IMG/VR virus record: IMGVR_UViG_3300025141_016157
Coordinates: 62,001 to 126,000 of that record
Direction: 5' to 3' (one strand)
Length of the DNA: 64,000 nt
Origin: a virus
Shown here: one piece after another, positions 40,218-58,393 of the stretch
Layout: every line of letters starts with the position of its first letter
Position numbering within the stretch: position 1 is the first letter of the stretch
The notes under the pieces: model-generated
Database searches by the model: none
Seen by the model: only the letters and a program-made list of their open reading frames with translations
Told to the model about the DNA's origin: nothing
Position numbers and translations under genes: made by a program

Positions 40218-40243
40218 AATAAAAATTACTGTAGTGAGAATAG

Positions 40244-42067: not shown

Positions 42068-42703
42068 ATGATTATTACAGAGAAAAGGATAAGAGAAATT
42101 GTTCTCGAAGAAATTATAAGAGAGCAAGAAGAAGTCAATCAAGATTGTCCAATTCCATTTCTTGCTGCCATATTAGCCTCTGAAGCTCCCAATAGTGAAA
42201 GAGAGATGAGTGCCGTATATGATGTTATTATGAAACGAGCAGAAATAGGCTTTAAAGAAGTAAATACGGTCGATGGACAATTAAGAGTTCCCAGGCAATT
42301 CTCTGGATATACAAGATTTAGACCAGACGATACTGCATTTATTGCATACTATAGTGGTACTGCTCCAGATTCTGAATATTCAGTTTCAGCAGATAGAGTA
42401 GAAACAGAGAAGCTTATAAGAAGAAATCAATTTAAAAGAGCATGTGGTGTAATAGTCTCAGATTTTCAAGATCCCGGTAACCCAGATGCACCTACATATG
42501 GAGCAACTCATTTTGTAAATCCAAGAGCAGCATCGACAGATAACAAGTGGTGGGAACTAGATACGTTTAGACCGATTCCGATTAATAATGGATATATAGG
42601 TGATCATCTTTTTGGGTGGGACTTGACAACAAGACAGTCAAGAGAATCATATTTACAGTTTAGATCTAGCCATCCAGAATTTAGCAGTCTCTATCCGGAT
42701 TAA
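42068..42703 (+). CDS. SleB-like cell wall hydrolase with capsid-targeting-like N-terminus
   Basis: This 211-aa protein begins MIITEKRIREIVLEEIIREQ, matching the N-terminal peptide seen in five other genes of the window, with a possible IRE|Q cleavage at residue 19. The remainder resembles SleB/CwlJ hydrolases. It has AAILASEAPNSEREMSAVYD with a likely catalytic Glu39, VPRQFSGYT, and GATHFVNPRAA at 145-155. It would cut peptidoglycan glycan strands. If packaged in the head it could act during entry. The packaging idea is inference; the family match is moderate. Confidence 0.66.
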   Translation: MIITEKRIREIVLEEIIREQEEVNQDCPIPFLAAILASEAPNSEREMSAVYDVIMKRAEIGFKEVNTVDGQLRVPRQFSGYTRFRPDDTAFIAYYSGTAPDSEYSVSADRVETEKLIRRNQFKRACGVIVSDFQDPGNPDAPTYGATHFVNPRAASTDNKWWELDTFRPIPINNGYIGDHLFGWDLTTRQSRESYLQFRSSHPEFSSLYPD

Positions 42704-42706
42704 GCT

Positions 42707-43366
42707 TTAATCTTCAAATTTTCTCAGCCTGGCAACACCATCTGTCACAGTAACATACGTCTGGTGTGTAACCCAGTCGCCTGCATTGATATATGTTTTA
42801 ATATTCTGATCTTCGTCAACCCATATTAAAGCTTCTGGTATGTGTGTATGACCCATAATAAACACATCAACTTTGGGATGGTGTCTAAGAATATTTATAA
42901 TTGATCTTAGCTTGTGCTTCTTAATTTGAATTTCCGTCCACCATGTTGTAAAGTCAAAGTTAAAAGTGAATTCAAGTATATTTTGAATAACAGATAGAAA
43001 TTTAACAAATACTCTATTTGCAAGAGCACCCTTGTCGTAAGAATCGCCGTGTTCAACTCTAAACACTCGGCCTTCATCTTCAAAGTCATACCTTTTAACA
43101 AATTCAACACCCATTATTTTTTTACCAACAACTCCCATTAAACCTTCGTCATGATTTCCAACTACATAGATAATTCTTTTTGCATCACCCATTTTTTCAA
43201 GTATCTGAAGACATCTTTCTGTAAAGACAGGTATCTTTATAAAATCTATAATATCACCAGCGAGAACAAGCTCATCACAATCCTCAGACTCTAAAAATGA
43301 TAAAAGCTCGAGAGACTTATAGAACCTAGTCCCAATATGTGTATCAGATATAATAACTCTTTTCAT
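42707..43366 (-). CDS. Calcineurin-like metallophosphoesterase
   Basis: This 219-aa protein reads leftward between plus-strand genes. It shows the full metallophosphoesterase signature: ISDTHIG (Asp8, His10), LAGDIIDF, VVGNHDEG, EHGDSYD, and IMGHTHIP near the end. The arrangement is like LpxH/UDP-diacylglucosamine hydrolases and other phage phosphoesterases. The substrate is unknown. It converges on the SleB-like gene, with 3 bp between stops, and its start faces the small gene at 43460. Confidence 0.85.
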   Translation of the reverse strand: MKRVIISDTHIGTRFYKSLELLSFLESEDCDELVLAGDIIDFIKIPVFTERCLQILEKMGDAKRIIYVVGNHDEGLMGVVGKKIMGVEFVKRYDFEDEGRVFRVEHGDSYDKGALANRVFVKFLSVIQNILEFTFNFDFTTWWTEIQIKKHKLRSIINILRHHPKVDVFIMGHTHIPEALIWVDEDQNIKTYINAGDWVTHQTYVTVTDGVARLRKFED

Positions 43367-43374
43367 TGAACAGT

Positions 43375-43403
43375 TTGCTAACCTTATATTAATATTATAT
43401 ACA
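43375..43403 (+). promoter_or_regulatory. Candidate promoter for the 43460 operon
   Basis: TTGCTA (43375-43380), 17 bp, TATACA (43398-43403) in the 93-bp divergent gap. A TATACT at 43420 is a second -10-like box without a clear -35. The gap must also hold the leftward promoter of the phosphoesterase. Confidence 0.35.
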
Positions 43404-43459
43404 GAACTACAAGGTGTACTATACTTGTGTTACTGAAGTTTAAAAATAAAGGAAAAAAA

Positions 43460-43702
43460 ATGACAGATACAAAAAACACATCAATGGCTTTTAGCGATGA
43501 GGTAATTGGACAAATTGCAAAACTAGTCCAACTAGCAATTATTACAGGGACAGATATTGTTGATAATTTAAGGATGATGCGTGTAACTCTTGATGGAGAA
43601 ACTGATGTTCTTACACTAACTGAAGAATATCGTGAAATATCAGAGGCTCAGGTTGAAAAGCTTATGCAAGAAGTAGAGGCACTTCAATCAGAAGAGGTGT
43701 AA
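43460..43702 (+). CDS. Small hypothetical protein
   Basis: This 80-aa protein starts at the ATG at 43460, preceded by AAAGGAAAA. An in-phase TTG at 43427 would place the start inside the candidate -10 region. The sequence is helical (DEVIGQIAKLVQLAIITGTD) with an acidic C-terminus and no recognisable motif. It is 3 bp from the dUTPase-like gene and probably co-translated with it. Function unknown. Confidence 0.7.
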   Translation: MTDTKNTSMAFSDEVIGQIAKLVQLAIITGTDIVDNLRMMRVTLDGETDVLTLTEEYREISEAQVEKLMQEVEALQSEEV

Positions 43703-43705
43703 GCT

Positions 43706-44077
43706 ATGGAAGATAGACTCTTAGAAATATTTAGGAGAAGAGAATCTTTTATGAAGAGCCTTGGTGATTCTTCCGGAGAATCTATGAACTGGCCACTTGA
43801 TTTATCAAAAAAAGAAAATCAGCAACATGTCAGGGATATGGCACTAAGAGGTGTCGAAGAGATGTTTGAAGCACTTCAGCATTTAAAAAACTGGAAACCT
43901 CATCGGAAAACAGAAATAACTGAATTTGATAGAGAAGAATTTCTTGAAGAGATTGTAGATGCATTTAATTATTTTCTATCGATTCTTGTCCTTACAGGAT
44001 TTGATGATAATGATTTAATTGATGCATACAGAAGAAAAGACAAGATTATAAATGAAAGATTGAGGACTGGATATTGA
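43706..44077 (+). CDS. dUTPase-like all-alpha NTP pyrophosphatase
   Basis: This 123-aa protein has the paired acidic helices of dimeric dUTPase/MazG-type enzymes. RGVEEMFEALQHL (Glu51, Glu52, Glu55) is followed by REEFLEEIVDAFNYFLSI (Glu81, Glu82, Asp85). A Lys/Arg-rich end (YRRKDKIINERL) matches the nucleotide-binding region of phage dUTPases. It should hydrolyse dUTP or a related nucleotide. The next gene, itself starting with a similar domain, overlaps it by 4 nt. Confidence 0.75.
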   Translation: MEDRLLEIFRRRESFMKSLGDSSGESMNWPLDLSKKENQQHVRDMALRGVEEMFEALQHLKNWKPHRKTEITEFDREEFLEEIVDAFNYFLSILVLTGFDDNDLIDAYRRKDKIINERLRTGY

Positions 44078-44985
44078 AAGTTAAAAAGCTATTTGAAGAT
44101 CAGAATTATTTTTCAAAGATGATAGGTACTGTGTGTAACACATCAGAAGATCTTGATAACTTTACAAAAACCCTATCTCTTGCACTTCATAAAGAAGTAA
44201 GTGATCTTGTATCTGCTACTAACTATAGATCTCACACTGATGATAGTATGGTTCCAGATGCAGACAAGATACTTTTTGAATCAGTAGATGTAATTAGATA
44301 TGCAGTAGCTATAATGAATGCGTGGAGCATAACTCCTGAAAAATTTCAAAAAGCATGGATACTAAAGGACAAGTATCTTTCACTTTCAAGAAAGATTGAA
44401 GGAAATACTTGGAAAGGGGAAAAAGTTGCAATTGTTGATATGGACGATGTTCTTTGTGAGTTTAGAGTAGGATTTTCAAATTGGCTAAATAAAAACTACA
44501 GCGTTATAACTGATGTAGAATCAAAAGAGTATTATTTTATTAATGCTCTTGAAAAAGCAGGTATAAACCCAGAGGGAATATTTTTAAAATTTGTATCTGA
44601 AGATGGATTCTCATCTTTAAAGCCAGCATCCGGTGCAATAGATTTTATTAAATCTCTTCAGGAGAAAGGTTATTTTATTCATATATTGACTGCAAGGCCA
44701 GGAGATAATCTAAGATGTCTTTATAATACACTTGACTGGCTTGACTCAAACAATGTCTGCTTTGACAAGGTTAGCTTCTCATCAGAAAAACTGAGATGGT
44801 GCATGCAATCAGAATACTGGTCATCAGGTGCAATAGAGTTTGCAATAGATGATTCACCTAAACATGCAGCAGAATATGCAAAACATGATATAAGAGTTCT
44901 TTTGCCAAGAAAGACTTATAATACAGAGGTTCAAAGTCTTTCAAATGTAATTGTCTATGATTCTTTCCTAGATATTGATATTTAA
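44074..44985 (+). CDS. Fusion of all-alpha NTPase-like domain with HAD nucleotidase
   Basis: This 303-aa protein begins at TTG, overlapping the previous stop (TTGA). Residues 1-105 resemble the helical NTP pyrophosphatase fold: HKEVSDLVSATNY, ILFESVDVIRYAVAIMNAW, then WILKDKYL. Residues 115-303 are a HAD phosphatase: VAIVDMDDVLCEF (Asp122, Asp124), HILTARPGD, and IDDSPKHAAEYA. The C-terminal half resembles 5'(3')-deoxyribonucleotidases. The fusion suggests stepwise dephosphorylation of a nucleotide. Confidence 0.72.
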   Translation: MKVKKLFEDQNYFSKMIGTVCNTSEDLDNFTKTLSLALHKEVSDLVSATNYRSHTDDSMVPDADKILFESVDVIRYAVAIMNAWSITPEKFQKAWILKDKYLSLSRKIEGNTWKGEKVAIVDMDDVLCEFRVGFSNWLNKNYSVITDVESKEYYFINALEKAGINPEGIFLKFVSEDGFSSLKPASGAIDFIKSLQEKGYFIHILTARPGDNLRCLYNTLDWLDSNNVCFDKVSFSSEKLRWCMQSEYWSSGAIEFAIDDSPKHAAEYAKHDIRVLLPRKTYNTEVQSLSNVIVYDSFLDIDI

Positions 44986-45017
44986 TTTATCCAATGATTA
45001 AGAATTTTCTGCAGCAG

Positions 45018-45048
45018 TTGAATAATTAAACATGTTAACTGCTATAAT
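45018..45048 (+). promoter_or_regulatory. Extended -10 sigma70-like promoter
   Basis: TGCTATAAT is an extended -10 (TATAAT 45043-45048), with TTGAAT 19 bp upstream (45018-45023). The predicted start near 45055 leaves about 30 nt before the ATG at 45085, with a GAGG ribosome site. Confidence 0.55.
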
Positions 45049-45084
45049 TGTAGAAATAAATTTATTAACGAAATAGAGGAAAAG

Positions 45085-46017
45085 ATGAAGCTAACTCAAA
45101 AATCTTTAAAGAAAATTATTCTTAGCGAGCTTAGAAGGTCCATATCAGAACAAGCACGAGATGCGGGTGACGTCCCCGGGGGCCAGGCACCAGCACGAGG
45201 CACCCAAGCCTATGCTGACAGCCAGAGAGAAATATGGGGTGTCTCTGATGAAGATCTCGAAAGAGAGCGCATCCAGAAACAGGCAGACGAGCGAGGAATA
45301 TCTTTTGAAGAAATGGAGGCTATTCTTGCTCATATGGATTCCCCAGAGTACCGCAGAGAACAATACCTAAGACAGCAAGAACAGGCACGTGCCCATGCAC
45401 GGGATGAAGGAAACTGGCCTGAGCCAAGGACTGGCAATATGTATGAAATCATTGGTGATCCACACAGCGTTGATATTCAAAACGGATTGAAGTGGTTGTG
45501 GCTTGGTGCAGTCCGGGACTCTAAGGTTTTGGAAGGTGTTGCTAAACAGTTCACCCCTAGAGTTCCAGCTGAGGGTGAGTACTTGGCAGGTTTTTCTTCT
45601 CCGATGTGGGCATTGGTTGATCACAGGGACGAAAATGGTGTATATACACAGCTTGTCACTCAGCCCGTGGGTGAGAGGCGAAGAGGCGCAGAGATATGCA
45701 GAATCACCGTCGAATACATTATGAAAGTATCGGGCGATCAAGTAGATTGTGAAATGGCATGGAACAGTGATATGGTTAGACCAGGTAGCCAGCTTGCGCG
45801 AATGATGGACGCAGCAGTTCAGGCAGTAAATGGTTCATCAGCTTCTTTCCCTGCATCGCTAAAATTCTTTCCTGATGGACGAACTGAGGGAGCAAACGCA
45901 GAAGTTCCAGCCTCAGAAGACGAAGTACCGGTTGCAATTCTTGAATTCACAGGAGGCGAGGTTGTGGCGCTGGTCAACATGGACTTCGGTTTTCGCGTTA
46001 GCCCATATGCTCGATAA
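45085..46017 (+). CDS. Capsid-targeting-like N-terminus plus unknown domain
   Basis: This 310-aa protein begins MKLTQKSLKKIILSELRRSI, a diverged member of the shared N-terminal peptide family, with a possible ISE|Q site at residue 22. A Gln/Glu/Arg-rich helical region follows (about 60-110), then a domain of unknown fold containing WLWLGAVRDSKVLEG and EICRITVEYIMKVSGD. Base composition is unusual: 41 of 60 bases at 45161-45220 are G or C by my count, against an AT-rich background. This suggests recent acquisition of the payload part. Confidence 0.68.
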   Translation: MKLTQKSLKKIILSELRRSISEQARDAGDVPGGQAPARGTQAYADSQREIWGVSDEDLERERIQKQADERGISFEEMEAILAHMDSPEYRREQYLRQQEQARAHARDEGNWPEPRTGNMYEIIGDPHSVDIQNGLKWLWLGAVRDSKVLEGVAKQFTPRVPAEGEYLAGFSSPMWALVDHRDENGVYTQLVTQPVGERRRGAEICRITVEYIMKVSGDQVDCEMAWNSDMVRPGSQLARMMDAAVQAVNGSSASFPASLKFFPDGRTEGANAEVPASEDEVPVAILEFTGGEVVALVNMDFGFRVSPYAR

Positions 46018-46129
46018 TAGACTGACAAATTATGAACACTTCGCATTGTTTTTTTCATAGTTGAGTTTTTTTATATTGTAAACTTTAATTTCTTGCTGTA
46101 TTGTATAAATGTAAAGCACAGGAGGAAAT

Positions 46130-46558
46130 ATGTTTCGTTTTACCCTACTCACGCCCCTACTTTTTTCACTCTCAGCATACGGAGATATTCCACCAGATAA
46201 TATTCGCATTGAATCTACTCTGGTTGGAAATGCTCCTATAGAGATTCCTGAGAGTGATTGCTCTTCTCCCATTTCAAACTCTATTGTTAAGTTTTTAGAT
46301 ACGGGATCAATGTGCATTGAAGGTGTTCGTGCCCATATTGATGGAAGAGGTTGTAATACAATTTTCTGGGAAAGGGGTTCTGATAATGAATATATCTTCT
46401 TTTGCAAGACAAGAGATACATGTGATATTACTCATGTAGGAAGATTTATTGCATACCCGACTTCACTTCCCGCACCTGAGATTTATTCTAGAAATCCTGC
46501 TATTTGCGAAGATTCAAATTATATTATTTTTCATGAACAAAATAATGTTAGTGAATAA
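46130..46558 (+). CDS. Secreted cysteine-rich small protein
   Basis: This 142-aa protein begins MFRFTLLTPLLFSLSAYG, a clear signal peptide with probable cleavage after residues 16-18. The mature part has six cysteines (about 44, 62, 75, 92, 98, 126), consistent with disulfides in the periplasm. It has no lipobox and no family I recognise. AGGAGGA is a strong ribosome site. A phage-encoded exported protein expressed from its own start could alter the envelope, for example against superinfection, but that is speculation. Confidence 0.7.
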   Translation: MFRFTLLTPLLFSLSAYGDIPPDNIRIESTLVGNAPIEIPESDCSSPISNSIVKFLDTGSMCIEGVRAHIDGRGCNTIFWERGSDNEYIFFCKTRDTCDITHVGRFIAYPTSLPAPEIYSRNPAICEDSNYIIFHEQNNVSE

Positions 46559-46588
46559 AATTAACTAGCGTTAAATATAGGAATACAG

Positions 46589-47575
46589 ATGCCAAAAAAT
46601 AAAAACTTAGAACCAGTTACTTTTCCAATGAAGATTAGATTTGACGAGGATCCGAGCACTGAGTTTAAGAATGATCTTGAATCAATTAATATTTCACTAC
46701 TAGACCATCCCGACCCGCTTAGGGCAAGAAGGATGGTGTACCAATTTATTAATGCAACATGGGAAGATGAGCCCGGTCTTCACAATCCAGACGATGTAGA
46801 TGACTGGAAGCTTTTTCAAGCACTAGAAGCTGCGCTTCAGTTCAAAGCTTTGCCTACAGTCTTGGAGACGCTTGATTTTACATTTAGAATTGAAGGAATC
46901 GATGTCCAGACAGTTACACATTTAATTCGGCATAGAACAGGATCTTTCTCTGCTCAGTGTACAGGAGACAGGTGGCAATCTCATGCAAATGCATTAGTTC
47001 CCGGTCCCATTCAGAATAGTCCTGAGATTTATGAAAGATGGAAAAGTCTAGTTGTTGAGTCAAAGAAGCTTTATTGTGACATGATTGATACAAGGAAGAT
47101 TTCGATTATGGATGCACGAACAATTCTTCCAAAGTGTCTCGAGACACATTATTACGCACGCTTTAATATGAAAGATCTTCTAAACTTTATTAGACAAAGA
47201 ATGGATAAGCAAATTCAGCCAACAACTGACAATATTATTGCATATCAGATGTACTTAGCCGTTGCAAGAATATTTCCAGAAGTTACAACAGTCGTGAATA
47301 TGCACTCACCTTCGAGACATTATGTTGCTACTGCAAGAACCGGAAAGGCAACAAATCTTTATTTTCCAGATAAAGATTCTGATTCGTTTGACTGGCACCC
47401 TAATGACTTTATCTACTCAGCATATCGCGATGAAGTAAATGGTACAGACCCAGATCTCGGCGGAAGAGAAAACTTTAAATTTTCAGAATTGGCATCAATG
47501 TACGATAGACAGGTCAATGACCTTGTAGAAAAGTACAATGAGTGGAAAGAAACTGTCGGATTTGAATCACCATAG
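46589..47575 (+). CDS. thyX: Flavin-dependent thymidylate synthase (ThyX-like)
   Basis: This 328-aa protein has the ThyX signature region HLIRHRTGSFSAQCTGDR (about 111-128), then ARTILPKCLETHYYARFNMK and LLNFIRQRMDKQIQP, matching the substrate-binding and helical end of ThyX. It would methylate dUMP using FAD. The RHRx7S motif carries Cys124 in place of Ser, and Ala stands where many enzymes have Glu. It is longer than typical ThyX (about 220-250 aa), with an extended N-terminus and C-terminus. It fits with thymidine kinase, dCMP deaminase and dUTPase genes nearby. Confidence 0.8.
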   Translation: MPKNKNLEPVTFPMKIRFDEDPSTEFKNDLESINISLLDHPDPLRARRMVYQFINATWEDEPGLHNPDDVDDWKLFQALEAALQFKALPTVLETLDFTFRIEGIDVQTVTHLIRHRTGSFSAQCTGDRWQSHANALVPGPIQNSPEIYERWKSLVVESKKLYCDMIDTRKISIMDARTILPKCLETHYYARFNMKDLLNFIRQRMDKQIQPTTDNIIAYQMYLAVARIFPEVTTVVNMHSPSRHYVATARTGKATNLYFPDKDSDSFDWHPNDFIYSAYRDEVNGTDPDLGGRENFKFSELASMYDRQVNDLVEKYNEWKETVGFESP

Positions 47576-47583
47576 GCGAAAAA

Positions 47584-48000
47584 ATGTCTTTTTCAGATTC
47601 ATTTAGCATGATTGAATCATGGCTTTTTGAAAAGGATTATGAAGTCTTGTACGAGACTGATGGTCAAGATGCTGTTTATTTTGGCTGTAAGCAAATTATT
47701 CTTAACAGTAGAAACCATATTGAAAAGAGACTATATATACTTTTGCACGAATGTGGTCACATACTAATAAATAGCAACTCTTTCGACAGGGTATTTTCCC
47801 TTAGCAGCGAAACAGAAGCTATAATGGGCGGTAGAAAAGTTTCTAGAAAAAGAAGAGTTGCAAAGCTAACAGAGGAAATTGAAGCCTGGAAACGAGGTGA
47901 GAATCTTGCAAGAAGGCTTGGGATAGAAATAAATGAAGAAAAGTTTGATAGAATACGTGCGAATGCTATTATGAGCTATATCGAATGGGCAAGAGATTAG
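47584..48000 (+). CDS. HExxH zinc metallopeptidase, ImmA/IrrE-like
   Basis: This 138-aa protein has YILLHECGHIL (His55-Glu56-His59), the zinc-peptidase motif, followed by a Glu-rich segment (SSETEAIM) that can supply the third ligand. Small size and the ARRLGIEINEEKF helical end resemble ImmA/IrrE-type peptidases. It lacks the N-terminal peptide found in neighbouring metallopeptidases. Its stop overlaps the stop of the convergent gene by 4 nt. The target is unknown. Confidence 0.72.
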   Translation: MSFSDSFSMIESWLFEKDYEVLYETDGQDAVYFGCKQIILNSRNHIEKRLYILLHECGHILINSNSFDRVFSLSSETEAIMGGRKVSRKRRVAKLTEEIEAWKRGENLARRLGIEINEEKFDRIRANAIMSYIEWARD

Positions 48001-48809
48001 CTCACTGAATGTTTAATATTTGTGTAGAGCTTAGTTAGAAATTTCTCTAGAGATTTTCTATCATTCTTTAATGTTTCTTTATATCTGGAAACTATTCCAG
48101 CAAGATCAGAGTCTTGCCTTTTGATAAGTGAAAGCGCTTCTTCTTGCGTGTATTTATCTAAAAGCTGCTCAGATGCTTCATATGCAAATGCATCAATTTC
48201 ATTATGAAGGCTAAGGTAGTCTTCCTGCGTTCCGCCTTTTGACAACTGCTTGGGATCGTTCTGTAGTTCTTCCCATGCCTCTTCTTCACTAATCCCTTTG
48301 CTTTCTGCCTGTTTCTTAAGTTGATTATAGTGAACTAGTTCATGGTTGATAGTTCGTGATATTATCTTTGATAGCTCTGTAGAGTCTAAGTCATCCATAT
48401 CATACTCATCAGAGTAGGGTCTAAACTCAAGCCATATAATGTGTTTCCCATTTTCAGGACCTCTGTATTGACCTCTCATCATCCAGTTGCTAGGATATCC
48501 TCCATATTCATCTCCCGGTCCTAAAGTATATAGCTCATTATCTGTAACACTGAGGAAAAAATATAGATCTGTACCAAGATCACTAGCAGATGTATTTAGT
48601 GCATCCATAAGAGTTTCAATTGCAGGAGTTGACCAGGTCGACTCATCAACAAGATCTACATCATTTTCATTGTGAGCCATTTCCCAAAACTTAGAATCGA
48701 CAATTCCTTGAAAAATAGCTGATGTCAATTCTTTATCAGGTGCTGTTGATTCACACAGCAAGATCTCTTCCTTGATGATCTGTCTTAATTGCCTGCGTGT
48801 GATTTTCAT
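47997..48809 (-). CDS. Capsid-targeting-like N-terminus plus HExxH metallopeptidase
   Basis: This 270-aa protein reads leftward. It begins MKITRRQLRQIIKEEILLCE with a possible LCE|S cleavage at residue 20. RTINHELVHYNQL (His156-Glu157-His160) is a zinc-peptidase motif, and LHNEIDAFAYEASEQ (Glu204) is the likely third ligand. Residues 60-140 form a mixed domain with aromatic strands. Its inverted orientation among plus-strand genes and its shared N-terminus suggest an independently mobile cassette. The protease target is unknown. Confidence 0.75.
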   Translation of the reverse strand: MKITRRQLRQIIKEEILLCESTAPDKELTSAIFQGIVDSKFWEMAHNENDVDLVDESTWSTPAIETLMDALNTSASDLGTDLYFFLSVTDNELYTLGPGDEYGGYPSNWMMRGQYRGPENGKHIIWLEFRPYSDEYDMDDLDSTELSKIISRTINHELVHYNQLKKQAESKGISEEEAWEELQNDPKQLSKGGTQEDYLSLHNEIDAFAYEASEQLLDKYTQEEALSLIKRQDSDLAGIVSRYKETLKNDRKSLEKFLTKLYTNIKHSVS

Positions 48810-48867
48810 GTTTAAACCCTGTTAGATAATAATTATTTCACTTTTTCTAATTTATTTTAAAAACTAC

Positions 48868-48895
48868 TTGCGACAAAGTTATAATCATCTATACT
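48868..48895 (+). promoter_or_regulatory. Sigma70-like promoter for the deoxyribosyltransferase gene
   Basis: TTGCGA (48868-48873), 16 bp, TATACT (48890-48895). The predicted start near 48902 leaves a 14-nt leader with AAGGAG. The TTG of the -35 box is in phase with the gene but lies upstream of the transcript, so the start is the ATG at 48916. Confidence 0.6.
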
Positions 48896-48915
48896 ATAAA
48901 CAAGGAGAAATAGTA

Positions 48916-49356
48916 ATGAAAGCGTATCTTGCAAGTTCATGGTTTAACCCTGTTGCAAATCAAGAGGTTGATGATATTATCTCATCACTTGAGAACAATA
49001 ACTTTGAGGTATTTTCACCTCGTGATTTTTTTGTTTGTCCGCCAACTGCTGACCTGGCAACACAAAAGTCAACCTATGAGGGAAATCTTGAACATCTTCA
49101 CAAGTGTGATTTTATGGTTTGTAATACTCATGGAAAAGATATGGGTTCAATTTTTGAAGCTGGATATTTTAAAGCACTTGAAAAGCCTATCGTTTATTTC
49201 TGCGCTGGGCTGCCCGCAGGGGCGGCATTCAACTTAATGTTGGCACAGAGCGGAGTAAAAGTATGCACATCTATTGATGAGCTTAATGACTACATGGCAC
49301 GCTGTAACTCAGAGGGTAAGCTTCTTTTCGAGCCATACTATGGAAATATTGAGTAG
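48916..49356 (+). CDS. Nucleoside 2-deoxyribosyltransferase-like protein
   Basis: This 146-aa protein has KAYLASSWFNP at the start and KDMGSIFEAGYFKALEKPIV, the family pattern with the likely nucleophile Glu in FEAGY (about residue 79). Enzymes of this family move deoxyribose between bases or hydrolyse deoxynucleotides, so it fits the nucleotide salvage set. AAGGAG at the correct distance fixes the ATG at 48916. Confidence 0.76.
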   Translation: MKAYLASSWFNPVANQEVDDIISSLENNNFEVFSPRDFFVCPPTADLATQKSTYEGNLEHLHKCDFMVCNTHGKDMGSIFEAGYFKALEKPIVYFCAGLPAGAAFNLMLAQSGVKVCTSIDELNDYMARCNSEGKLLFEPYYGNIE

Positions 49357-49420
49357 AATTTAATAACATCGTTGCGTGTAAATTTGGCTAATTTATTTTA
49401 TAATAAATTGAGGAATATAA

Positions 49421-52400
49421 ATGTCATCTATTATTAAACCCAAGAAGTTTGTCGGTCTACATGCACATTCTGGAACAGGTAGTCCGTATGACGGTCTTGG
49501 ATATCCAAACCAGCATATTGACTTTGTCTTGTCAAATGAAATGAATGCATGGGCACTGACTGATCACGGTAACGGTAACGGTCTTGCCCATGCACATGCT
49601 TATGCAAAGAAGCTAAAGAAGAAAGGTAGGGATTATCGACAGATTTATGGTGTTGAGTTTTACTTTGTACCTTCATTGCTTGAATGGCGTGAATCTTACG
49701 AAGCACATCGTGAAGAAGTTCGTGCAGCAAGGTCTGAAAAGAAGTTAAAAGAGTCAACAGATATTAACTCTGAAGATGAGATTTCTGGAGGTCTTATAAT
49801 TGAAAATGAAGATGAGACAAAAAATGATTTCGAGAAAAACGATTGGAAGAGGCGATATCACCTAGTTGTCATCGCAAAGAATCAAATTGGTCTACAGAAT
49901 CTTTTCACTCTTGTCAAGAAGTCTTATACAGATGGTTTCTACAGATTCCCTAGAATTGATTACAATCTTCTCAAGATGCACGGTGAGGGTCTTGTAGTAA
50001 GTACAGCATGCATTGGTGGCTATCCCTCATCTTTAATTGCTAGAGGGGAGGCAACAGGCAAGTCTGATAGTGATATTATTCTAGATTTAGAAAACATGTC
50101 TGATAGATTTATTGATGCCGTAGGCAGGAAAAACTTTAATCTAGAAGTTCAATTTAACTCTCTATCAATGCAACATAAAACCAATAAGCATCTTATTTCT
50201 CTACATGAGAAAACAGGTATACCGCTTGTCGCTACTGCTGATAGTCACTACTATGGTAGAAATATGTGGGAAGCACGAGAATTGTATAGAAAACTCGGCC
50301 GCATGGGTGCAAGAGGAGATGCAATGCCGTCACTTCCAGCTTTTGAAGACTTGAAGTGTGAGCTCTATCCCAAGAATGCTGAACAAATGTGGGATGAGTA
50401 TAAACAGCATGCTTCAAGCTATGATTTCTACAAGGGTAAAGATCAGCTAATAGCTGATGCAATTGAAAGATCTTACGATATTGCATGGGAACAATGCGAA
50501 GATGTCTGGTTTGATGAGGAGGCAAAGCTTCCAAGATTTGGTACACCGACAGACTCAGCATTCAATCAGCTAGCACGAAGAGTTAAAGAGGCACTAGTTA
50601 AAGAAGACCTTCATAAAGATCAAGAATATGTTGATCGTGCAAAGATGGAGCTAGATGATATCAAGTATCTTGGATTTGAAAACTATTTCCTAACTATGAC
50701 AAAGGTTTTTGACCTAGCATCACAAAGCACTATTATCGGCCCAGGTCGCGGCTCTGGCGCTGGATCACTAGTTAACTACTTGCTAGGAATTACAACAACA
50801 GACCCGATTAAATATGGGCTTCTATGGGAGAGATTTCTTCACAGGGCAAAGGCAGGATGGCCAGACATTGATACAGATGCTGGTGATAGAGATGTCCTGA
50901 TCAATGCTTCAAGAGAACTTTTCGGAGAAGAGTCTGTTGTTCCAGTTTCCAATTTTAATACACTTAAGCTTAAGTCCCTTGTTAAGGATGTTTCAAAGTT
51001 TTATGGTATTGACTTTGGCGAAGTTAACGCAATGACAAATACTTTAGAAAAAGATGTTATGCATAAAGCTATGGGTGATCATGAAGAAAGATCAACATAT
51101 GTTCTTACACATGAAGATTGTATGAAGTACTCGCAGAAGTATTCTGATTTTATGGATGAATACCCGAAGGTAAGTGAACATGTCCAGAATCTTTTTATGG
51201 AGTCTAGATCAATTGGTAGACATGCTGGGGGTGTTTTAATCTGCCCGAATCTCGAGAAGCATATGCCCGTTATTAAGGTAAGGGGCGAATTGCAAACACC
51301 ATGGTCTGAAGGTATGAACTTTAGACATCTTGAAACAAACGGATTTCTTAAGTTTGATTTTCTCGGTCTAACAACACTTAAGATGGTCGAAGATTGTACA
51401 AGACTTATTCTTAGAAAGCAAGGCAATCTATCACCTACGTTTGCTGATATTCAAAAGTTCTTTGATGAAAAGATGAATTGTAGATATAATGATCTTGATG
51501 ATCAAAATGTATGGGAGCATGTTTACCATAAGGGTCGGTTTGTACAGGTATTCCAGTTTACCCAGCAAGGCGCAAGAAACTTTTGCACTTCTGCAAAGCC
51601 AAGTACTATTGAAGAATTAGCAACAATTACAGCAATCTATCGGCCAGGACCTCTTTCTGCTGGTGTTCATAGAAAGTACGTAAAAGCTAAGAAGTCAGTT
51701 GAGGATGGTAAACCTATTGAGTATGATCACCCTGTTATCGAAGAGATTCTAAGCGAAACTTACGGCTTTATCTCGTTCCAAGAGCAGTTCATGCTCTTAG
51801 CACAGAAGCTAGCTAATTTTGACAAGGGTGCATCAGATAAGATGCGTAAGACACTAGTTAAGAAATCACTCGATTCAAATGCTGCAAAGGTTCAAGAAAG
51901 AATTGACCTTCACAAGAAGTTTGTCAACGGTGCAGTTGAGATATCTGGGATGGATAAGGACAAGGCTGAGAAGCTCTATGAGACAATTGAATTCTTCTCT
52001 GGGTATGGCTTCAATAAGTCGCATGCAGTGTCCTACGCCATTGATTCCTATTACTCTGCATGGCTTCACACATACTATGAAAAAGAATGGCTTGCAACAT
52101 GCTTGCAAACACAAAATGGCTCTAGTAAGTTTGGAAAGGTCATCTCTGAGATTAAATCACTAGGATATACAATTTTACCGCCTGACATCAACGCCTCTTC
52201 TGATGTCTGGGTTTACAGTGATGAGAGGGGAGGCTTTGTCCCACCTCTAACAGCAATCAAGGGTGTTGGCGACGCTGCCGTTGCAGAGATTATGGAAAGG
52301 AGACCATTCTCCAGTCTTGATGAGATGATGTTTACTGAGGATGGCAAGTGGCGACCATCAAAGATGAACAAGACATGTTTTAGCTCACTTTCTTTGGTCG

Positions 52401-52978
52401 AGGCTTTTGGAAGCCTAGATGAGTTCAAAACTGGAAAGGTACTAAATCACAGACAACTTTACACTGTTATCATTGACAACTATGACCTCCTTAAGAAGGG
52501 CAGACATGGAATGACAAAGACTGCTGTTAAGAAATTGTTAAAGGAACAGGACTACATTCCAAACTTTATCGATATCAAGCTTAACGAGGTTGATGGAATG
52601 CCTGACTGGAATCGTGCAGAGAAGATTGGAAACAGTGTTGAATTAATGGCAAGTGCAGATGAGACTCTTGTATTCCCGCCAAGAATTATGGCAAAGATTG
52701 AAAAGGCAGATGTTCGCCCAGTCACTGCACTCTCGGGAAAAGAAAGAGATATTGTCTGGTTCTGTATTCAAACAATGGAAGAGAGAACAACAAAGAACAA
52801 CAAGAAGTTCTATCGGATGAAGGTCATGGATAATAACTCTGAGAGCTGCTGGCTCCGTGTCTGGGGTAGGTTTGATGATCCCCCTGACCTATATACCATG
52901 TGGCTGGCTGAAGTAGCTTCTACAGAGTCCTGGGGTTGTTCTACATCATCATATAAGATGAAGAAGCTAGAGGTTTAG
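49421..52978 (+). CDS. dnaE: DNA polymerase III alpha subunit (DnaE-like, family C)
   Basis: This 1185-aa replicative polymerase has an N-terminal PHP domain (GLHAHSGTGSPYDG, His14/His16; LTDHGNGNG). The catalytic core is GPGRGSGAGSLVNYLLGITT and WPDIDTD (Asp482, Asp484), with the third Asp in LKFDFLGL (Asp646). It continues with YRPGPLSAGVHRKYV, FQEQFMLLAQKL, FSGYGFNKSHAVSYA, helix-hairpin-helix (IKGVGDAAVAEIM) and an OB-like end. Full length is close to bacterial DnaE (1160 aa). T4 uses a family B polymerase, so a DnaE in a T4-like phage is a replacement. No proofreading subunit is seen. GAGGAA precedes the ATG. Confidence 0.93.
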   Translation: MSSIIKPKKFVGLHAHSGTGSPYDGLGYPNQHIDFVLSNEMNAWALTDHGNGNGLAHAHAYAKKLKKKGRDYRQIYGVEFYFVPSLLEWRESYEAHREEVRAARSEKKLKESTDINSEDEISGGLIIENEDETKNDFEKNDWKRRYHLVVIAKNQIGLQNLFTLVKKSYTDGFYRFPRIDYNLLKMHGEGLVVSTACIGGYPSSLIARGEATGKSDSDIILDLENMSDRFIDAVGRKNFNLEVQFNSLSMQHKTNKHLISLHEKTGIPLVATADSHYYGRNMWEARELYRKLGRMGARGDAMPSLPAFEDLKCELYPKNAEQMWDEYKQHASSYDFYKGKDQLIADAIERSYDIAWEQCEDVWFDEEAKLPRFGTPTDSAFNQLARRVKEALVKEDLHKDQEYVDRAKMELDDIKYLGFENYFLTMTKVFDLASQSTIIGPGRGSGAGSLVNYLLGITTTDPIKYGLLWERFLHRAKAGWPDIDTDAGDRDVLINASRELFGEESVVPVSNFNTLKLKSLVKDVSKFYGIDFGEVNAMTNTLEKDVMHKAMGDHEERSTYVLTHEDCMKYSQKYSDFMDEYPKVSEHVQNLFMESRSIGRHAGGVLICPNLEKHMPVIKVRGELQTPWSEGMNFRHLETNGFLKFDFLGLTTLKMVEDCTRLILRKQGNLSPTFADIQKFFDEKMNCRYNDLDDQNVWEHVYHKGRFVQVFQFTQQGARNFCTSAKPSTIEELATITAIYRPGPLSAGVHRKYVKAKKSVEDGKPIEYDHPVIEEILSETYGFISFQEQFMLLAQKLANFDKGASDKMRKTLVKKSLDSNAAKVQERIDLHKKFVNGAVEISGMDKDKAEKLYETIEFFSGYGFNKSHAVSYAIDSYYSAWLHTYYEKEWLATCLQTQNGSSKFGKVISEIKSLGYTILPPDINASSDVWVYSDERGGFVPPLTAIKGVGDAAVAEIMERRPFSSLDEMMFTEDGKWRPSKMNKTCFSSLSLVEAFGSLDEFKTGKVLNHRQLYTVIIDNYDLLKKGRHGMTKTAVKKLLKEQDYIPNFIDIKLNEVDGMPDWNRAEKIGNSVELMASADETLVFPPRIMAKIEKADVRPVTALSGKERDIVWFCIQTMEERTTKNNKKFYRMKVMDNNSESCWLRVWGRFDDPPDLYTMWLAEVASTESWGCSTSSYKMKKLEV

Positions 52979-53009
52979 CCAGATATATATTATCTGAGTG
53001 TGACACAGC

Positions 53010-53060
53010 ATGAAGATAACAGAGTCAAGAATCAGAAGAATTATAAGAGAAGAGCTTCTT
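53010..53060 (+). repeat. Conserved N-terminal coding cassette, copy A
   Basis: These 51 nt encode residues 1-17 (MKITESRIRRIIREELL) and match 55316-55366 at 48 of 51 positions. A 24-nt block within it is also identical in the 54382 gene. The payload sequences behind the cassette are unrelated, which points to cassette shuffling. Confidence 0.7.
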
Positions 53061-54341
53061 CAGGAATCTAGTGACTTTAGATTTGACATTAACAAAAGTG
53101 TATATGTACTTCCTGATGCGCAGGTAGAGATTGAAAAAGCGGGGGATGGCTGGCTATTAAAGATCAGGAATTTACAAGCAGGACAATTTGGTTCAGTTCC
53201 TTTGAACATCTACGGACCATCCTACATGCTTGATTCGCTTGTACCACACGGAGCAGAGCCGGGCGATAAGCATCATAGGTTCTTGCAATCTGTAGGCTTT
53301 CCATTTGATGATCATCCTCCCTACGAAACCTGGGAGAATGAATTTCCCGGGGGCGCCAGAAGATTTATCACTGATGGTGACTACCTTGATCAGTACCTTG
53401 AAAGATTTCACAAAGATGAGGAATTTACTAGTGAGTTCAGGCTAAGCTACTTTGGCTACGCTCAGGATGTCTTACAGGGAATTCGCTTAACGCTTGATAG
53501 AATTGACAGCTATATACATAGCAATAGGGTTCAAAATATCATAGCTAGGGATCATGATGATTTTAAAGATAAGCTTGCAAAATTTTTCTCAATAAGTGAA
53601 ATAAACATTGTTGATAAGACAGCACGAGATACGGCTGGTTTCTATATGCCATCTGAACACAGTATCACAATTGCAGTTGCAAGAAACCCGCGTAAGGTGA
53701 CAAGGGAAACAACCTATCATGAATTTCTTCATCACTGGCAAGAAATTTTTGATGAACCTGAAAATTTTGATTGGAAGTTTCGTCCACTTGAACGTGAAGA
53801 TGAGACAGGCTTAGGGCAAGAAGATGAAACATATGAAGCTCTTTATTCACAACTAATGGCTGCCTCAAATATTCCAGTAAGAAGGTGGCTTAGGAACCTC
53901 GGAGCAAGCTATCTTAATCTTCCTACTAATTTTGACAGATATACTGTTAGAGAGTCAATGAGAAAAGCTGAAAGCTTTGAGATGTCATTAAGCGCTGATG
54001 ATAAGGGGGAGTGGAGTGGTTTTGATTCAGTCTTTAAGGCATTTTACCAGTTTCAGGAAAACCACTTTACAATGTCCCTAAGACGACTCTTTATGATCTT
54101 AAATAACTTAGGATATGATTTAGATTTAACTAGTGATAATAGCATTGAAAGATTTAAAGAGGGATTAAATTTATTTTTAAGATTTGGATTTCCACACAGC
54201 GTATATCTTAAAAACAGGGATTTGATTGCGTTACCTTTGTTTCTTAAGCCTACACCAAAGAATATAAATTTAATCACAAGAATAGGTGATACTCTTGCTT
54301 CTAATGAAATACATTCTGACAGTGGTACTGAAACTGTATAA
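53010..54341 (+). CDS. Capsid-targeting-like N-terminus plus HExxH metallopeptidase
   Basis: This 443-aa protein begins MKITESRIRRIIREELLQES with a possible LQE|S cleavage at residue 19. TTYHEFLHHWQEIF (His237-Glu238-His241) is a zinc-peptidase motif, with EDETYEALYSQL (Glu276) as probable third ligand. The first 200 residues have mixed strands and no clear family. The start codon lacks a good ribosome site. Its first 51 nt match the 55316 gene at 48 positions, indicating a shared, recently copied leader cassette. The protease target is unknown. Confidence 0.74.
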   Translation: MKITESRIRRIIREELLQESSDFRFDINKSVYVLPDAQVEIEKAGDGWLLKIRNLQAGQFGSVPLNIYGPSYMLDSLVPHGAEPGDKHHRFLQSVGFPFDDHPPYETWENEFPGGARRFITDGDYLDQYLERFHKDEEFTSEFRLSYFGYAQDVLQGIRLTLDRIDSYIHSNRVQNIIARDHDDFKDKLAKFFSISEINIVDKTARDTAGFYMPSEHSITIAVARNPRKVTRETTYHEFLHHWQEIFDEPENFDWKFRPLEREDETGLGQEDETYEALYSQLMAASNIPVRRWLRNLGASYLNLPTNFDRYTVRESMRKAESFEMSLSADDKGEWSGFDSVFKAFYQFQENHFTMSLRRLFMILNNLGYDLDLTSDNSIERFKEGLNLFLRFGFPHSVYLKNRDLIALPLFLKPTPKNINLITRIGDTLASNEIHSDSGTETV

Positions 54342-54381
54342 AACAATTATTAAGAATAATTATATTAAGAGCAAAGTTATT

Positions 54382-55314
54382 ATGAAAATCACACACAAGC
54401 GGCTAAAAAGAATTATAAGAGAAGAGCTTCTACGTGAGGCCAGTGGAGCTGCAGGTCCGGGCACAGTTCCAGGATACAATTATATTGAGGTATCTGAGTA
54501 CAGAGGTAAACCTGCTCACATGATAAATGCTAAGCATCTCAAAAGAACTTTGAAAGAGACATTGGGTATAAAGCAACATGGAACGGCTGACGACCACTTC
54601 CACCAGGCGGGCTTGGGAGGTATTATTTCTGGTTGGGGAAGCCTAAGTAAGAAACTAACAAAAATCTGGAGCGATCGAATCCCCCAGGGACAAGGCGGTC
54701 ATGGAACGGGATGCCAAAGCTGCTGGGCAGACTTCTTTATTCTTGTAGATCTTGGAAAATGTGGAGCATCTCAGGCATACTTGATCCCTGGTGTTAGCGT
54801 TGTTGAAGATATTCCAATTATAGTATTTGGAGATATTAGTCTTGAGCCTCTAATTGATCACATAGCAGATGAAGCAGGCTTGGCGATAATTGGGAAAGGC
54901 GAAAAAAGAGATGATGCTGAACAACAGACTGTTGAAAATGAGTGGGCAGAATGGACAGGTAGACAGTATGAGCTTATTAGTAAATTTCATAATAAGGTGT
55001 ATTATGGAGGCGAGATGCTTTCCGACCTATTACACGATGCATTTGTTTTCCGGACACCAGTAATTGTTGTGCTCCCAAGGTCATCGCTAATTAAAGATAT
55101 TGATCCGTGTGTCATTGCTAAAAATTATCAACTTCTTAGAGCGCCACCGGTGACACCGGTGGCTCCAGCTGTTAAGGATGAAGTAGAGCTTGATCCTGCA
55201 AGCGTGGAGATAGATCCCCAGGGCCAGCAAATAGATATTGATTCTGAGATATATGATGCGCCTCTTGAGCCGTATAAATCTCCCTTTAGAACTCCAATAG
55301 GTAAGCAAGATTAA
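54382..55314 (+). CDS. Capsid-targeting-like N-terminus plus unknown domain
   Basis: This 310-aa protein starts at the ATG at 54382. A longer frame from 54286 overlaps the upstream gene and is excluded because MKITHKRLKRIIREELLREA begins here. Possible cleavage is LRE|A at residue 19. The body contains HGTADDHFHQAGLGGIISGW, a GTGCQSCWADFFILVDLG segment, and FRTPVIVVLPRSS, followed by a Pro/Val and acidic tail. No family is recognised. The AIIG and DDHFHQAG patches could be an active site, but none is proven. It ends one base before the next gene. Confidence 0.68.
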   Translation: MKITHKRLKRIIREELLREASGAAGPGTVPGYNYIEVSEYRGKPAHMINAKHLKRTLKETLGIKQHGTADDHFHQAGLGGIISGWGSLSKKLTKIWSDRIPQGQGGHGTGCQSCWADFFILVDLGKCGASQAYLIPGVSVVEDIPIIVFGDISLEPLIDHIADEAGLAIIGKGEKRDDAEQQTVENEWAEWTGRQYELISKFHNKVYYGGEMLSDLLHDAFVFRTPVIVVLPRSSLIKDIDPCVIAKNYQLLRAPPVTPVAPAVKDEVELDPASVEIDPQGQQIDIDSEIYDAPLEPYKSPFRTPIGKQD

Positions 55315-55315
55315 A

Positions 55316-55366
55316 ATGAAGATAACAGAATCCAGAATCAGAAGAATCATAAGAGAAGAGCTTCTT
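55316..55366 (+). repeat. Conserved N-terminal coding cassette, copy B
   Basis: These 51 nt code for MKITESRIRRIIREELL, the same 17 residues as copy A at 53010. The three differences are all third-position or synonymous changes, so the peptide is under constraint. Confidence 0.7.
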
Positions 55367-58300
55367 AAAGAAGATAGCGAAGATACCGTTCTAGGAAAAA
55401 TGAGCTGGCCCATGGCGCCTGGTGTCTCAGACCCGTTTGGTGAACTACGATCCTCAAATCCCCCACCAGTTCTTTCAACATCAATGTGGTATGACCTCGA
55501 TGGTGACGCAATGCTATCGAGTCATAAGATTGAATCAAAGAAATTTATTGAACACCTTATGGATACTATAGAGCACAGAGGTGGAGTTGCAAACTCTGTT
55601 GCAAATGCTGGACACATCGCAGCTGTCTACAAGGAAATGGGTGTTGAGACGCGAATAGCTCCATACCCTGGGCCTAAGCATTGGGGTGCAGGAGATTATG
55701 AGTCATGGGGAGAGTTTCCAGGATCAGCAAGAAGTTTTTTTAAAAAGTATGACCCATGGGTTCTTGATGCGGACGAGATATTTCTCGTAACAGTTGATAA
55801 TACTTCTTACAGGGCTCCTGGCCAAAAAGTTACAGAGATTGAACCTGAAGATATGGAGATGGGAGTTGAATACGGAGGAACAACTGATCCCGCAGCTGGC
55901 AAGATTAAGCGAGCACTTAGCTCTCTACTTGGTGACCTTACGCTTCCTGCCCATTACGATCCTTCACCAGTTCAACTGACCGCTGCTAAATCATGGCTGT
56001 CTCAATGGCTTCCAGGAGGAAATCCATCTCCTGAAATGGCTAGGGCAATGGCAGCTACAAATCCATACAATGCTGTCTGGGAAACATTTCTAGGTCCAAT
56101 AAAAGAGTGTCTAAGCGGTCAAGCAGCTGCCAAAGAAGAAGCTACTCGAAGAGCATCAAAGCAGGATGATTTCTATTCTAGAGAAGGGGCAGACATAACC
56201 TTTGCTGGAGGAGCAACGTCAGAGGATACCCAGGCTGTTCTCAAACAAATGCAAAAAACTGGGGAGGCAGAAAAGATATCAGATGAATCAATTGGGACTT
56301 CTTCTGCTGGTCTGTGTGCATCAGCCAGAGCATCAGAGCTTATAGCATTGTTAGTTTTGCCATCTGGACAGTTTACTTTAGCCGGAAGGATTGCGCTAGC
56401 AGCTGGTCTCGTTCATCTTGCAAGAGGCTCTCACAGAGAGGCTATGTTTGAACTACTGCTTGGTGCATTTGAGATTGTAGCAGCAACCAAAGCGATTGTA
56501 AGATATACCGCAGTAGTTAAAAGTGCACTTAGGTCAGGAAAGCTTCCGGCAGATGACATTCTCGAAGAAATGATTAAAGCTGGAGTATTTGAAGAGCATG
56601 CTGATATAATAAGGCGGTTAGCAAGACAGCCAAAGATGGAGGAAGAAGTTCAAGCTATGCGCCAAGAGATGGCAAGAGTAATCGAGACAATGGATAGTAC
56701 AGATCCCTTGAAGCCTTATCTGGATGCATATGTTAGAGGAGCCAGTTCAGATGAGCTTAGGGGAATATACAAGGCTGCCAAGGCTGAGATTGAGTCTGGA
56801 GCTCGCTGGGACATTCACACGTCAACTAGACGTGCAGCTGATATTGATCCAGATGAGCTCGATGCGTGGCTAGAAAGACTTGAGGACTTACCGCTTACAT
56901 CATCTCCTGGATCTAGAAAAGCTGTAATAGACAAGTATATAGAATCTCAGATCAGTATAAATAGAGCTCTGGAAGCTGAACAGGCAACAGCAAGAGGTGC
57001 AGGTCGAGGGAAATCGACTCCGGAAAATCCATGGGGAAAGGGTCCTGAGCCTAAAGCAATTAGACCCGCAGGATCTAAGGCGCCATTAGCACAAACAGCC
57101 AATATGGGAAGACAGATTATTGATTTAGCATATGCCAAATTACGATCGATACCTGATGGTAAAATTTATAAGATTGCAAAATTCGAAAGAGGTCACTTCA
57201 GCGACGTTGATAGAATTGAAATTAGACTGGATGGTTTGTTTGATGTTGATGATATTGAAAAAATTGTTGACGACTCTCTCGGTGACTATCTAAACACGCT
57301 CACACCCCCGCAGGCATCAAGGTATAAGCAAGATGTTATTGAAGAAATCCAAAACCTTGACTTTGTAGTAGGACCAAGGACTCCTGACAGGGTGGGACAA
57401 TATGTCCAATCCGGACCTGGTCAAAGAGGCCAAGTCTGGGTTGAACCGTTTGACAAAGAAGAGTGGAAGGCTATAGTAGGAACCAATAGAGATCGACCAG
57501 ATTTTGAAGAAGCCGTTAAAAAAGCTTTTATCGACGCTCTAGATTCTGGAACAAAATTTGATTTGCCAGAGCAGGTGAGAAATACACTTTCTCATGAACT
57601 TGGTCACTGGATAGACCTCACTATCGAGGGAAATAAATATGATCACCTTATTGTAGATTCAAATGGAATTCCCATGAGGGAAATCGATGGCAAGCAGATG
57701 ACATTTGATCAAGCTGTCAAAGAAAGAAAAGTTAAAACAATAGAAGAATGGCTACAGGACCCGCCGGATATCTTTGGAGATTTCGTAACGCAACCCTGGC
57801 ATGGAAGAATTGGGGAGCTAGATGCTGAAATAACAAGAGGCGTAACAGATTTTCAAGATTCCCTAGAGGCATCAATTAAAAGAATTCGTGACCTTGATGA
57901 TCAATATAAGCTTCCCTGGGATATCTCTCCCAGAAAGCCGCCGCGAGATCAACAGCCAGTAGCATCTGATAGTCCGTCAGCATGGGATAGAAGAAGTACT
58001 ACCAAACACCCATCACAGACTACTCGCAGACAAGAGCCGAAAAAATGGGATGATGCAGAGACAAAGTCAGCAATGCACAAAGAAGAGATGGCAGAGATCG
58101 GCTTGGACGAACTAGATTATACATATCAAATATTGACTGATAAAGATCTATTTAGGGATATATTTGTCGGAGACTACTTTCCTATTGAGCCTAACCGTGG
58201 GTATCTTGATGATTATGGATGGGTAGGAAGTGCAGAAAATATCGTAGATCAAAAGATTGATGACGTTCTTTTCGAACCTGGCGGATTATGGGACTGGGCT

Positions 58301-58393
58301 AGAAAGGAAGCAGGAATAAACGTTGAGTACATTGACATGCAGGAGTCAGTTGTATATGTGTCTCGGTGGATGAAACTTGCAGGTATAAAATGA
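55316..58393 (+). CDS. Very large capsid-targeting-like protein with HExxH motif
   Basis: This 1025-aa multidomain protein begins MKITESRIRRIIREELLKED with possible LKE|D cleavage at residue 19. Residues 50-160 form a compact domain (HWGAGDYESWGEFPGSARSF). Residues 335-400 contain a hydrophobic stretch (IALLVLPSGQFTLAGRIALA) and helices, possibly for membrane interaction. A Pro/Gly linker lies near 560-590. Zinc-peptidase TLSHELGHWIDL (His760-Glu761-His764) follows, then a Pro/Arg-rich disordered part (about 875-910). It ends VSRWMKLAGIK, like the scaffold end. Its size and layout suggest an ejected effector, which is inference. Confidence 0.72.
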   Translation: MKITESRIRRIIREELLKEDSEDTVLGKMSWPMAPGVSDPFGELRSSNPPPVLSTSMWYDLDGDAMLSSHKIESKKFIEHLMDTIEHRGGVANSVANAGHIAAVYKEMGVETRIAPYPGPKHWGAGDYESWGEFPGSARSFFKKYDPWVLDADEIFLVTVDNTSYRAPGQKVTEIEPEDMEMGVEYGGTTDPAAGKIKRALSSLLGDLTLPAHYDPSPVQLTAAKSWLSQWLPGGNPSPEMARAMAATNPYNAVWETFLGPIKECLSGQAAAKEEATRRASKQDDFYSREGADITFAGGATSEDTQAVLKQMQKTGEAEKISDESIGTSSAGLCASARASELIALLVLPSGQFTLAGRIALAAGLVHLARGSHREAMFELLLGAFEIVAATKAIVRYTAVVKSALRSGKLPADDILEEMIKAGVFEEHADIIRRLARQPKMEEEVQAMRQEMARVIETMDSTDPLKPYLDAYVRGASSDELRGIYKAAKAEIESGARWDIHTSTRRAADIDPDELDAWLERLEDLPLTSSPGSRKAVIDKYIESQISINRALEAEQATARGAGRGKSTPENPWGKGPEPKAIRPAGSKAPLAQTANMGRQIIDLAYAKLRSIPDGKIYKIAKFERGHFSDVDRIEIRLDGLFDVDDIEKIVDDSLGDYLNTLTPPQASRYKQDVIEEIQNLDFVVGPRTPDRVGQYVQSGPGQRGQVWVEPFDKEEWKAIVGTNRDRPDFEEAVKKAFIDALDSGTKFDLPEQVRNTLSHELGHWIDLTIEGNKYDHLIVDSNGIPMREIDGKQMTFDQAVKERKVKTIEEWLQDPPDIFGDFVTQPWHGRIGELDAEITRGVTDFQDSLEASIKRIRDLDDQYKLPWDISPRKPPRDQQPVASDSPSAWDRRSTTKHPSQTTRRQEPKKWDDAETKSAMHKEEMAEIGLDELDYTYQILTDKDLFRDIFVGDYFPIEPNRGYLDDYGWVGSAENIVDQKIDDVLFEPGGLWDWARKEAGINVEYIDMQESVVYVSRWMKLAGIK

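Follow-up and report, generated by a model that had tools for sequence, protein, structure and literature searches.

Six genes in a single record of an uncultivated T4-like phage encode proteins that begin with variants of one short peptide ending in (I/L)xE and continue into mutually unrelated payloads. We estimate, with a probability of about 0.8, that such peptides are interchangeable capsid-targeting leaders, similar in their action to the capsid-targeting sequence (CTS) of phage T4, that are cut by a gp21-type protease, after which the payloads would leave the head with the DNA. The leader would probably serve as a tag that directs cargo to the virus head ahead of injection. To our knowledge, proteins that are packed in the head and injected have been described for very few phages, and a tag that is recognizable, can be swapped and has a precise cut site would allow sequence-based prediction of packaged proteins in uncultivated T4-like phages. 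Our analysis centers on a window of 64 kb, that is, the whole stretch of DNA analyzed, which corresponds to positions 62001-126000 of a 160,346-base virus record; coordinates below are those of the window, and ↓ denotes a predicted cut.

The six genes and the head module

The original prediction held that six proteins share an N-terminal leader, and all six open reading frames (ORFs), each starting with ATG, as well as their N-termini were confirmed: 42068 (211 amino acids (aa)), 45085 (310 aa), 48809 on the minus strand (270 aa), 53010 (443 aa), 54382 (310 aa) and 55316 (1025 aa). Upstream of the ATG of 54382, a longer ORF starts with GTG at 54286. The leader, which we denote class A, has the consensus MKITxxxLxxIIxEE...(I/L)xE and spans about 20 residues. 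The (I/L)xE site expected at residues 17-22 is likewise present in all six proteins, with the Glu at residues 19, 22, 20, 19, 19 and 19, in the order given above.

A regular expression derived from these leaders matched 6 of the 319 candidate starts in the 160-kb record, compared to 0.0 expected when the N-termini were shuffled; this expression was drawn up after inspection of the six genes, and the weight therefore rests on independent scans. An independent profile, built from 155 IMG/VR leaders, recovered four of the six at E=5e-11 to 5e-9, namely, those of 48809 (MKITRRQLRQIIKEEILLCE; 48750..48809, minus strand; LCE↓S; E=4.9e-11), 54382 (MKITHKRLKRIIREELLRE; 54382..54438, plus strand; LRE↓A; E=1.1e-10), 55316 (MKITESRIRRIIREELLKE; 55316..55372, plus strand; LKE↓D; E=1.1e-9) and 53010 (MKITESRIRRIIREELLQE; 53010..53066, plus strand; LQE↓S; E=4.5e-9), and also picked up ORF51, located just outside the window (E=8e-7). 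The leader of 45085 (MKLTQKSLKKIILSELRRSISE; 45085..45150, plus strand; ISE↓Q) scored only E=4.3, and that of 42068 (MIITEKRIREIVLEEIIRE; 42068..42124, plus strand; IRE↓Q), a divergent class A version matched by the regular expression, was missed by this strict profile, so that we treat both as weaker members resting on the regular expression and the site. The genes 53010, 54382 and 55316 are nearly identical in DNA from the ATG over about 50 bases (to about codon 17) and differ in their upstream DNA, a pattern that would fit a leader module moving from gene to gene.

None of the payloads is similar to another, as had been claimed, and all are acidic in their mature form (192-1006 aa, net charge -8 to -48). 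The HExxH motif noted in three of them was found in the metallopeptidase-like payload of 48809 (47997..48749, minus strand; 250 aa; HELVH) and in the putative metallopeptidases of 53010 (53067..54341, plus strand; 424 aa; HEFLH) and 55316 (55373..58393, plus strand; 1006 aa; HELGH), the last of these within a large multi-region protein whose C-terminal 200 aa are 85% identical to a counterpart in another record (L111). In 48809, HELVH and further H/E/D residues are conserved across six homologues; an AlphaFold model from six sequences is mostly confident for the payload, with blocks mostly at pLDDT 65-95, and presents the leader as a separate loose helix of low confidence (pLDDT ~52). A fold search with this model returned no PDB match; in BFVD, it matched phage proteins weakly. 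The 53010 payload matched PHROG 308 ‘internal virion protein’ at E=0.033 only, and a search of viral contigs yielded no homologues. The proposed SleB-like hydrolase assignment of the 42068 payload (42125..42703, plus strand; 192 aa) proved weak: the likeness to SleB/CwlJ-type cell wall hydrolases comes down to a match with Pfam Hydrolase_2 (E=0.0044) at 18.1 bits, under the cut-off of 27, and single-sequence fold prediction was uninformative (pLDDT 37). The payloads of 45085 (45151..46017, plus strand; 288 aa) and 54382 (54439..55314, plus strand; 291 aa) had no Pfam, PHROG or NCBIfam match, and four of the window proteins found no match in the phage collection.

Judged by its genes, the phage encodes a head module of the T4 gp20/gp21/gp23 type. 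The gene for a gp21-like head protease (phrog_207, E=4e-56) lies outside the window, about 1.3 kb upstream of its first base, with a gp20-like portal gene further upstream; an alignment with T4 gp21 covers the His (GE-x-x-HP) and Ser (G-x-SSRG) motifs of the protease, in which the catalytic His and Ser are conserved. Within the window, a probable prohead scaffold (705..2156, plus strand) occupies the gp22 position between the protease and the gp23-like major capsid protein (2199..4211, plus strand; phrog_138, E=1.8e-73); a PHROG search with this putative scaffold gave no match, and 19 related head clusters have a homologous gene in this position. In the capsid protein, LLRE61↓Q aligns with FLTE65↓A, the known maturation site of T4 gp23, and relatives keep hydrophobic-x-Glu there.

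Exchange and spread of the leaders

In the sequences compared, the best evidence for the leader reading comes from a natural leader swap. Homologues of the 48809 payload are encoded in other virus records, two of them still with a class A leader and others with unrelated leaders in its place. The six sequences read MKIT..IIKEEILLCE↓ST, ..LYE↓ST (twice), MRLIMESWRKYIVE↓AT, MKQLMENWRRFLVE↓AT and MRFLKEYISQVLKE↓AT; all of them share the Glu, with ST or AT directly behind it, and the homology of the payloads begins exactly at this point. A second class of leaders, B, with the consensus MKL(L/I)MENWRK(F/Y)(L/I)xE (e.g., MKLLMENWRKFLxE↓), is as widespread, with at least 120 viral stretches and 99 distinct proteins, and its cargo matches zeta toxin or P-loop kinases, protein kinases, M23 peptidase, NT5C and cytidylyltransferase. 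The frequency of the cut site in class B is no independent evidence because the search pattern demanded Glu at residue 14. In a nucleotidyltransferase-like family, members with leader B read MKLIMENWRKYLQE↓GGNIF (..LQE↓GGNIF), whereas leaderless members begin with M↓GGNIF; as aligned, the start of these leaderless homologues is the same leader/payload boundary, arrived at independently. These alignments present leader and payload as separate modules, with at least two unrelated leader classes, A and B, exchangeable on one payload.

The original prediction had suggested looking elsewhere for the same N-terminal peptide joined to different domains. With a degenerate DNA pattern for class A, this search succeeded, detecting at least 120 stretches of viral contigs on highly varied proteins; the reversed pattern, used as a control, matched no viral stretch. 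Exact-pattern copies number up to 8 per record. In 257 Gb of cellular genomes, the class A pattern occurred in 18 stretches only, and the two cellular contigs richest in copies belong to metagenome-assembled genomes that also carry a phage head protease. The codons of the conserved class A residues vary freely, which implies selection on the peptide rather than on the DNA. Among the nearest cultured relatives tested (immuto, Mel-JY01, RM378, P-SSM2, HTVC008M, S-SSM7, XacN1 and T4), class A was absent within one mismatch, and of the relatives tested, only the uncultured 484-kb LR756508 contains near versions; a short-peptide tblastn search against cultured phages gave no match, as expected from the query length.

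The leaders co-occur with the gp21-type head module. The protease family phrog_207 is present in 21/21 other leader-bearing records of at least 130 kb (14 with class A and 7 with class B), compared to 2/4 random control contigs of at least 130 kb and 6/13 of at least 50 kb. Against this small control, Fisher p=0.02 and 0.11, so that co-occurrence alone is only modestly significant because random large contigs also often carry phrog_207. Shorter leader-bearing records often have no phrog_207. Among the class A records of at least 50 kb that lack it, 10/11 have no T4-type portal either, which fits fragmentary records; the exception is a leader-bearing 125-kb record (G010) with a T4-type portal and no recognizable protease. 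An S78 protease was sought in the leader-bearing records without phrog_207, and none was found. In 19/30 records, class A genes are found no more than 15 kb from the protease gene, versus 9.6 records expected (p=0.0004), with an enrichment at 1.5-3 kb that is weak if counted per site.

The cut site itself is specific in both position and sequence. The (I/L)xE motif is present at residues 16-26 in 60.6% of 155 distinct class A leaders, compared to 26.5% when residues 16-26 of each leader were permuted (z about 11), and about 40% of the leaders lack it in this segment. No enrichment was detected in residues 27-48, the next two windows of the same leaders. Within residues 16-26, the leaders are depleted in (I/L)xD and show no enrichment of (V/M/F)xE; (I/L)x(K/R) is mildly enriched in them, as expected from helix patterning. 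The same test on 977 genes of random viral contigs gave a ratio of 1.13 for (I/L)xE; with I/L and E content matched by the same filter, the ratio was 1.01 for control genes versus 1.73 for leaders. Random-contig genes were chosen as the clean control because other genes of the head loci themselves have an excess of (I/L)xE (ratio 1.7). When every gene of the record was considered, an excess of (I/L)xE was unconvincing.

Alternative explanations and a proposed mechanism

Class A leaders also occur on small proteins encoded immediately before or after the protease in several of 31 head clusters, and a conserved family in these clusters (orf50) begins with a divergent class A version ending in (I/L)xE (e.g., MKKSELKNIIKECVKEVIFEEG and MAKISRNALKGLVKECLVEILAEG). 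These carriers, along with the median class A protein length of 109 aa and the precedent of the T4 core proteins gp67, gp68 and gp22, with gp21 cleaving gp22 and gp67 (PMC9026906), point to the main rival explanation, namely, that the leader is a prohead-core assembly peptide and that its carriers are core, scaffold or DNA-associated internal structural proteins rather than delivered effectors. We consider this explanation unlikely given that the six payloads span 192-1006 aa, three of them with HExxH, and that the kinases, M23 peptidase and NT5C among the class B cargo would be implausible scaffolds. The core and delivered roles may both be true, for different carriers.

Given that the leader is an amphipathic helix and that (I/L)x(K/R) is mildly enriched alongside (I/L)xE, the leader might instead target proteins elsewhere, to the tail or baseplate, the host membrane or a replication compartment, with (I/L)xE arising as a by-product of an acidic amphipathic helix. 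The depletion of (I/L)xD, the lack of an excess in composition-matched control genes, the boundary that falls exactly on the Glu even with unrelated leaders and the clustering of class A genes near the protease gene make this improbable. We attach hardly any credence to the idea that the common 5' ends are recent duplication or gene-conversion tracts without function, as might be suspected from the near-identical starts of 53010, 54382 and 55316 beneath different upstream DNA. As a full account, such tracts are refuted by the conservation of the peptide in hundreds of divergent viral proteins, even as synonymous codons vary freely, and by the replacement of one leader by another, unrelated one at the same point. 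Duplication or gene conversion may be the route by which leaders spread.

Under the capsid-targeting interpretation, the leader would form a short amphipathic helix that attaches to the prohead core while the head is being assembled, carrying any fused payload into the prohead. We infer that the gp21-type protease would then cut after (I/L)xE at residues 19-22, setting the mature payload free in the head. The payloads, which include putative metallopeptidases and perhaps a wall hydrolase, might then exit with the DNA and act as effectors in the new host, as an analogy with Alt and IPI suggests, and evolution would recombine leader and payload modules. What stands of the original prediction of a T4-like capsid-targeting leader is an (I/L)xE-ended leader on varied payloads, backed by the gp21-type protease, the site enrichment, the Glu-exact swaps and the leaders in head clusters; for two of the six proteins, the leader is weak. 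On balance, we also lean, with less confidence than in the preceding interpretation, toward a general plug-in code for capsid loading, in which at least two interchangeable leader classes and one protease would serve a rotating arsenal of enzymes (peptidases, kinases, nucleotidyltransferases and wall hydrolases) delivered with the genome. If so, the leader would be a sequence tag for finding packaged effectors across environmental viromes, with leader swaps and leaderless homologues showing which enzymes were recruited to, or released from, the virion.

Comparison with known systems

The CTS of T4 IPI, IPII, IPIII and Alt is likewise a short N-terminal leader on unrelated proteins that ends in (L/I)-x-E and goes with a gp21-type protease. 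T4 gp21 cuts after L/I-x-E, the first 10 residues of the CTS are enough for packaging, and an Asp as the final CTS residue prevents cleavage while leaving targeting intact (PMC9026906); the preference for Glu over Asp in class A leaders fits this block. The T4 N-termini are MKTYQEFIAE↓A in IPII and IPIII, MELITELFDE↓D in Alt and MAKINELLRE↓S in gp24. Class A does not clearly resemble MKTYQEFIAE in sequence, and class B has in common with it a loose MK...F(I/L)xE pattern only, so we classify the leaders as working like the CTS rather than as members of the T4 CTS sequence family. In contrast to the T4 CTS, the class A leader consists of 19-22 residues of a different sequence, several carriers are present per genome (up to 8 by exact-pattern counts), the cargo is larger, acidic and often endowed with enzyme motifs, and the system is known from sequence alone. 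The T4 internal proteins are basic, unlike the acidic payloads here, and none of the six payloads matched the T4 IPI/IPII/IPIII families in PHROG or Pfam.

According to a review, the internal proteins of T-even phages differ widely and share only a conserved CTS (PMC3012670). Those proteins are small and basic, and the studied one is anti-restriction, whereas here the cargo is far more varied and either of two leader classes can take the other's place. In the giant phages phiKZ and SPN3US, as described in excerpts of PMC5694885, ejection proteins carry N-terminal propeptides that are cut after Glu by a gp21-related protease, and the paralogues gp53 and gp54 have an identical N-terminus. These propeptides are mostly longer than 100 residues and are cut at A-x-E or similar sites, and the same excerpts do not report leader swapping of the kind found here. 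The open-access papers searched mention neither the two leader classes nor how widely they occur nor that they replace each other on one payload at a precise junction, and all of this appears to be new; already known are diverse cargo with a common CTS, in T-even phages, and propeptides with Glu sites, in giant phages. Swappable leaders make the origin and spread of T4-type CTSs testable.

Genes adjoining leader-bearing genes

Immediately 5' of the first gene in the window with the leader, a putative capsid-targeting peptide (start 42068), lies a gene for a nucleotidyltransferase-domain protein (41271-42059; phrog_36119, E=2e-39). Also adjoining the leader-bearing genes are two possible auxiliary metabolic genes (39325-41182), one for a PLP enzyme that resembles cysteine synthase, the other for a sulfotransferase-like protein. 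The leader-bearing gene for the putative HELVH peptidase (48809, minus strand) has a convergent, tail-to-tail neighbor at 47584-48000, which encodes a 138-aa HExxH protein (LLHECGHILI) that lacks a leader. The small ORF that follows the last leader gene (55316), at 58366-58539, has a C-terminal motif (CEMFPDHPKCRD) similar to the one that ends a leader-bearing protein in a related phage (L111:614-1390; CDQFPTHPTCKD).

Putative tail genes and the head clusters

Two large proteins encoded in tandem in the window (8929-12153 and 12188-15313) start alike (..FKSPGFFEREIDLSQTS and ..FKSAGVFATETDLSRP) and may be tail sheath paralogs, as their appearance suggests. Between their protease and capsid genes, many of these phages (head clusters L273-L290) encode a small, basic protein similar to ribosomal protein bS21, for example, at L280:9037-9285; the counterpart in the cultured phage Mel-JY01 is annotated RpsU (L429:5184-5411). 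The 125-kb leader-bearing record G010 (L441) contains a T4-type portal, near which no recognizable gp21-like protease was found.

Class B cargo

Some proteins behind the class B leader (L022:4765-5892, L340:1776-2891 and L406) look by eye like ADP-ribosyltransferases, with stretches such as DVVYHYT... and LIVYRG...; Pfam gave no confirmation of this likeness. The suspected activity is that of T4 Alt, an ADP-ribosyltransferase.
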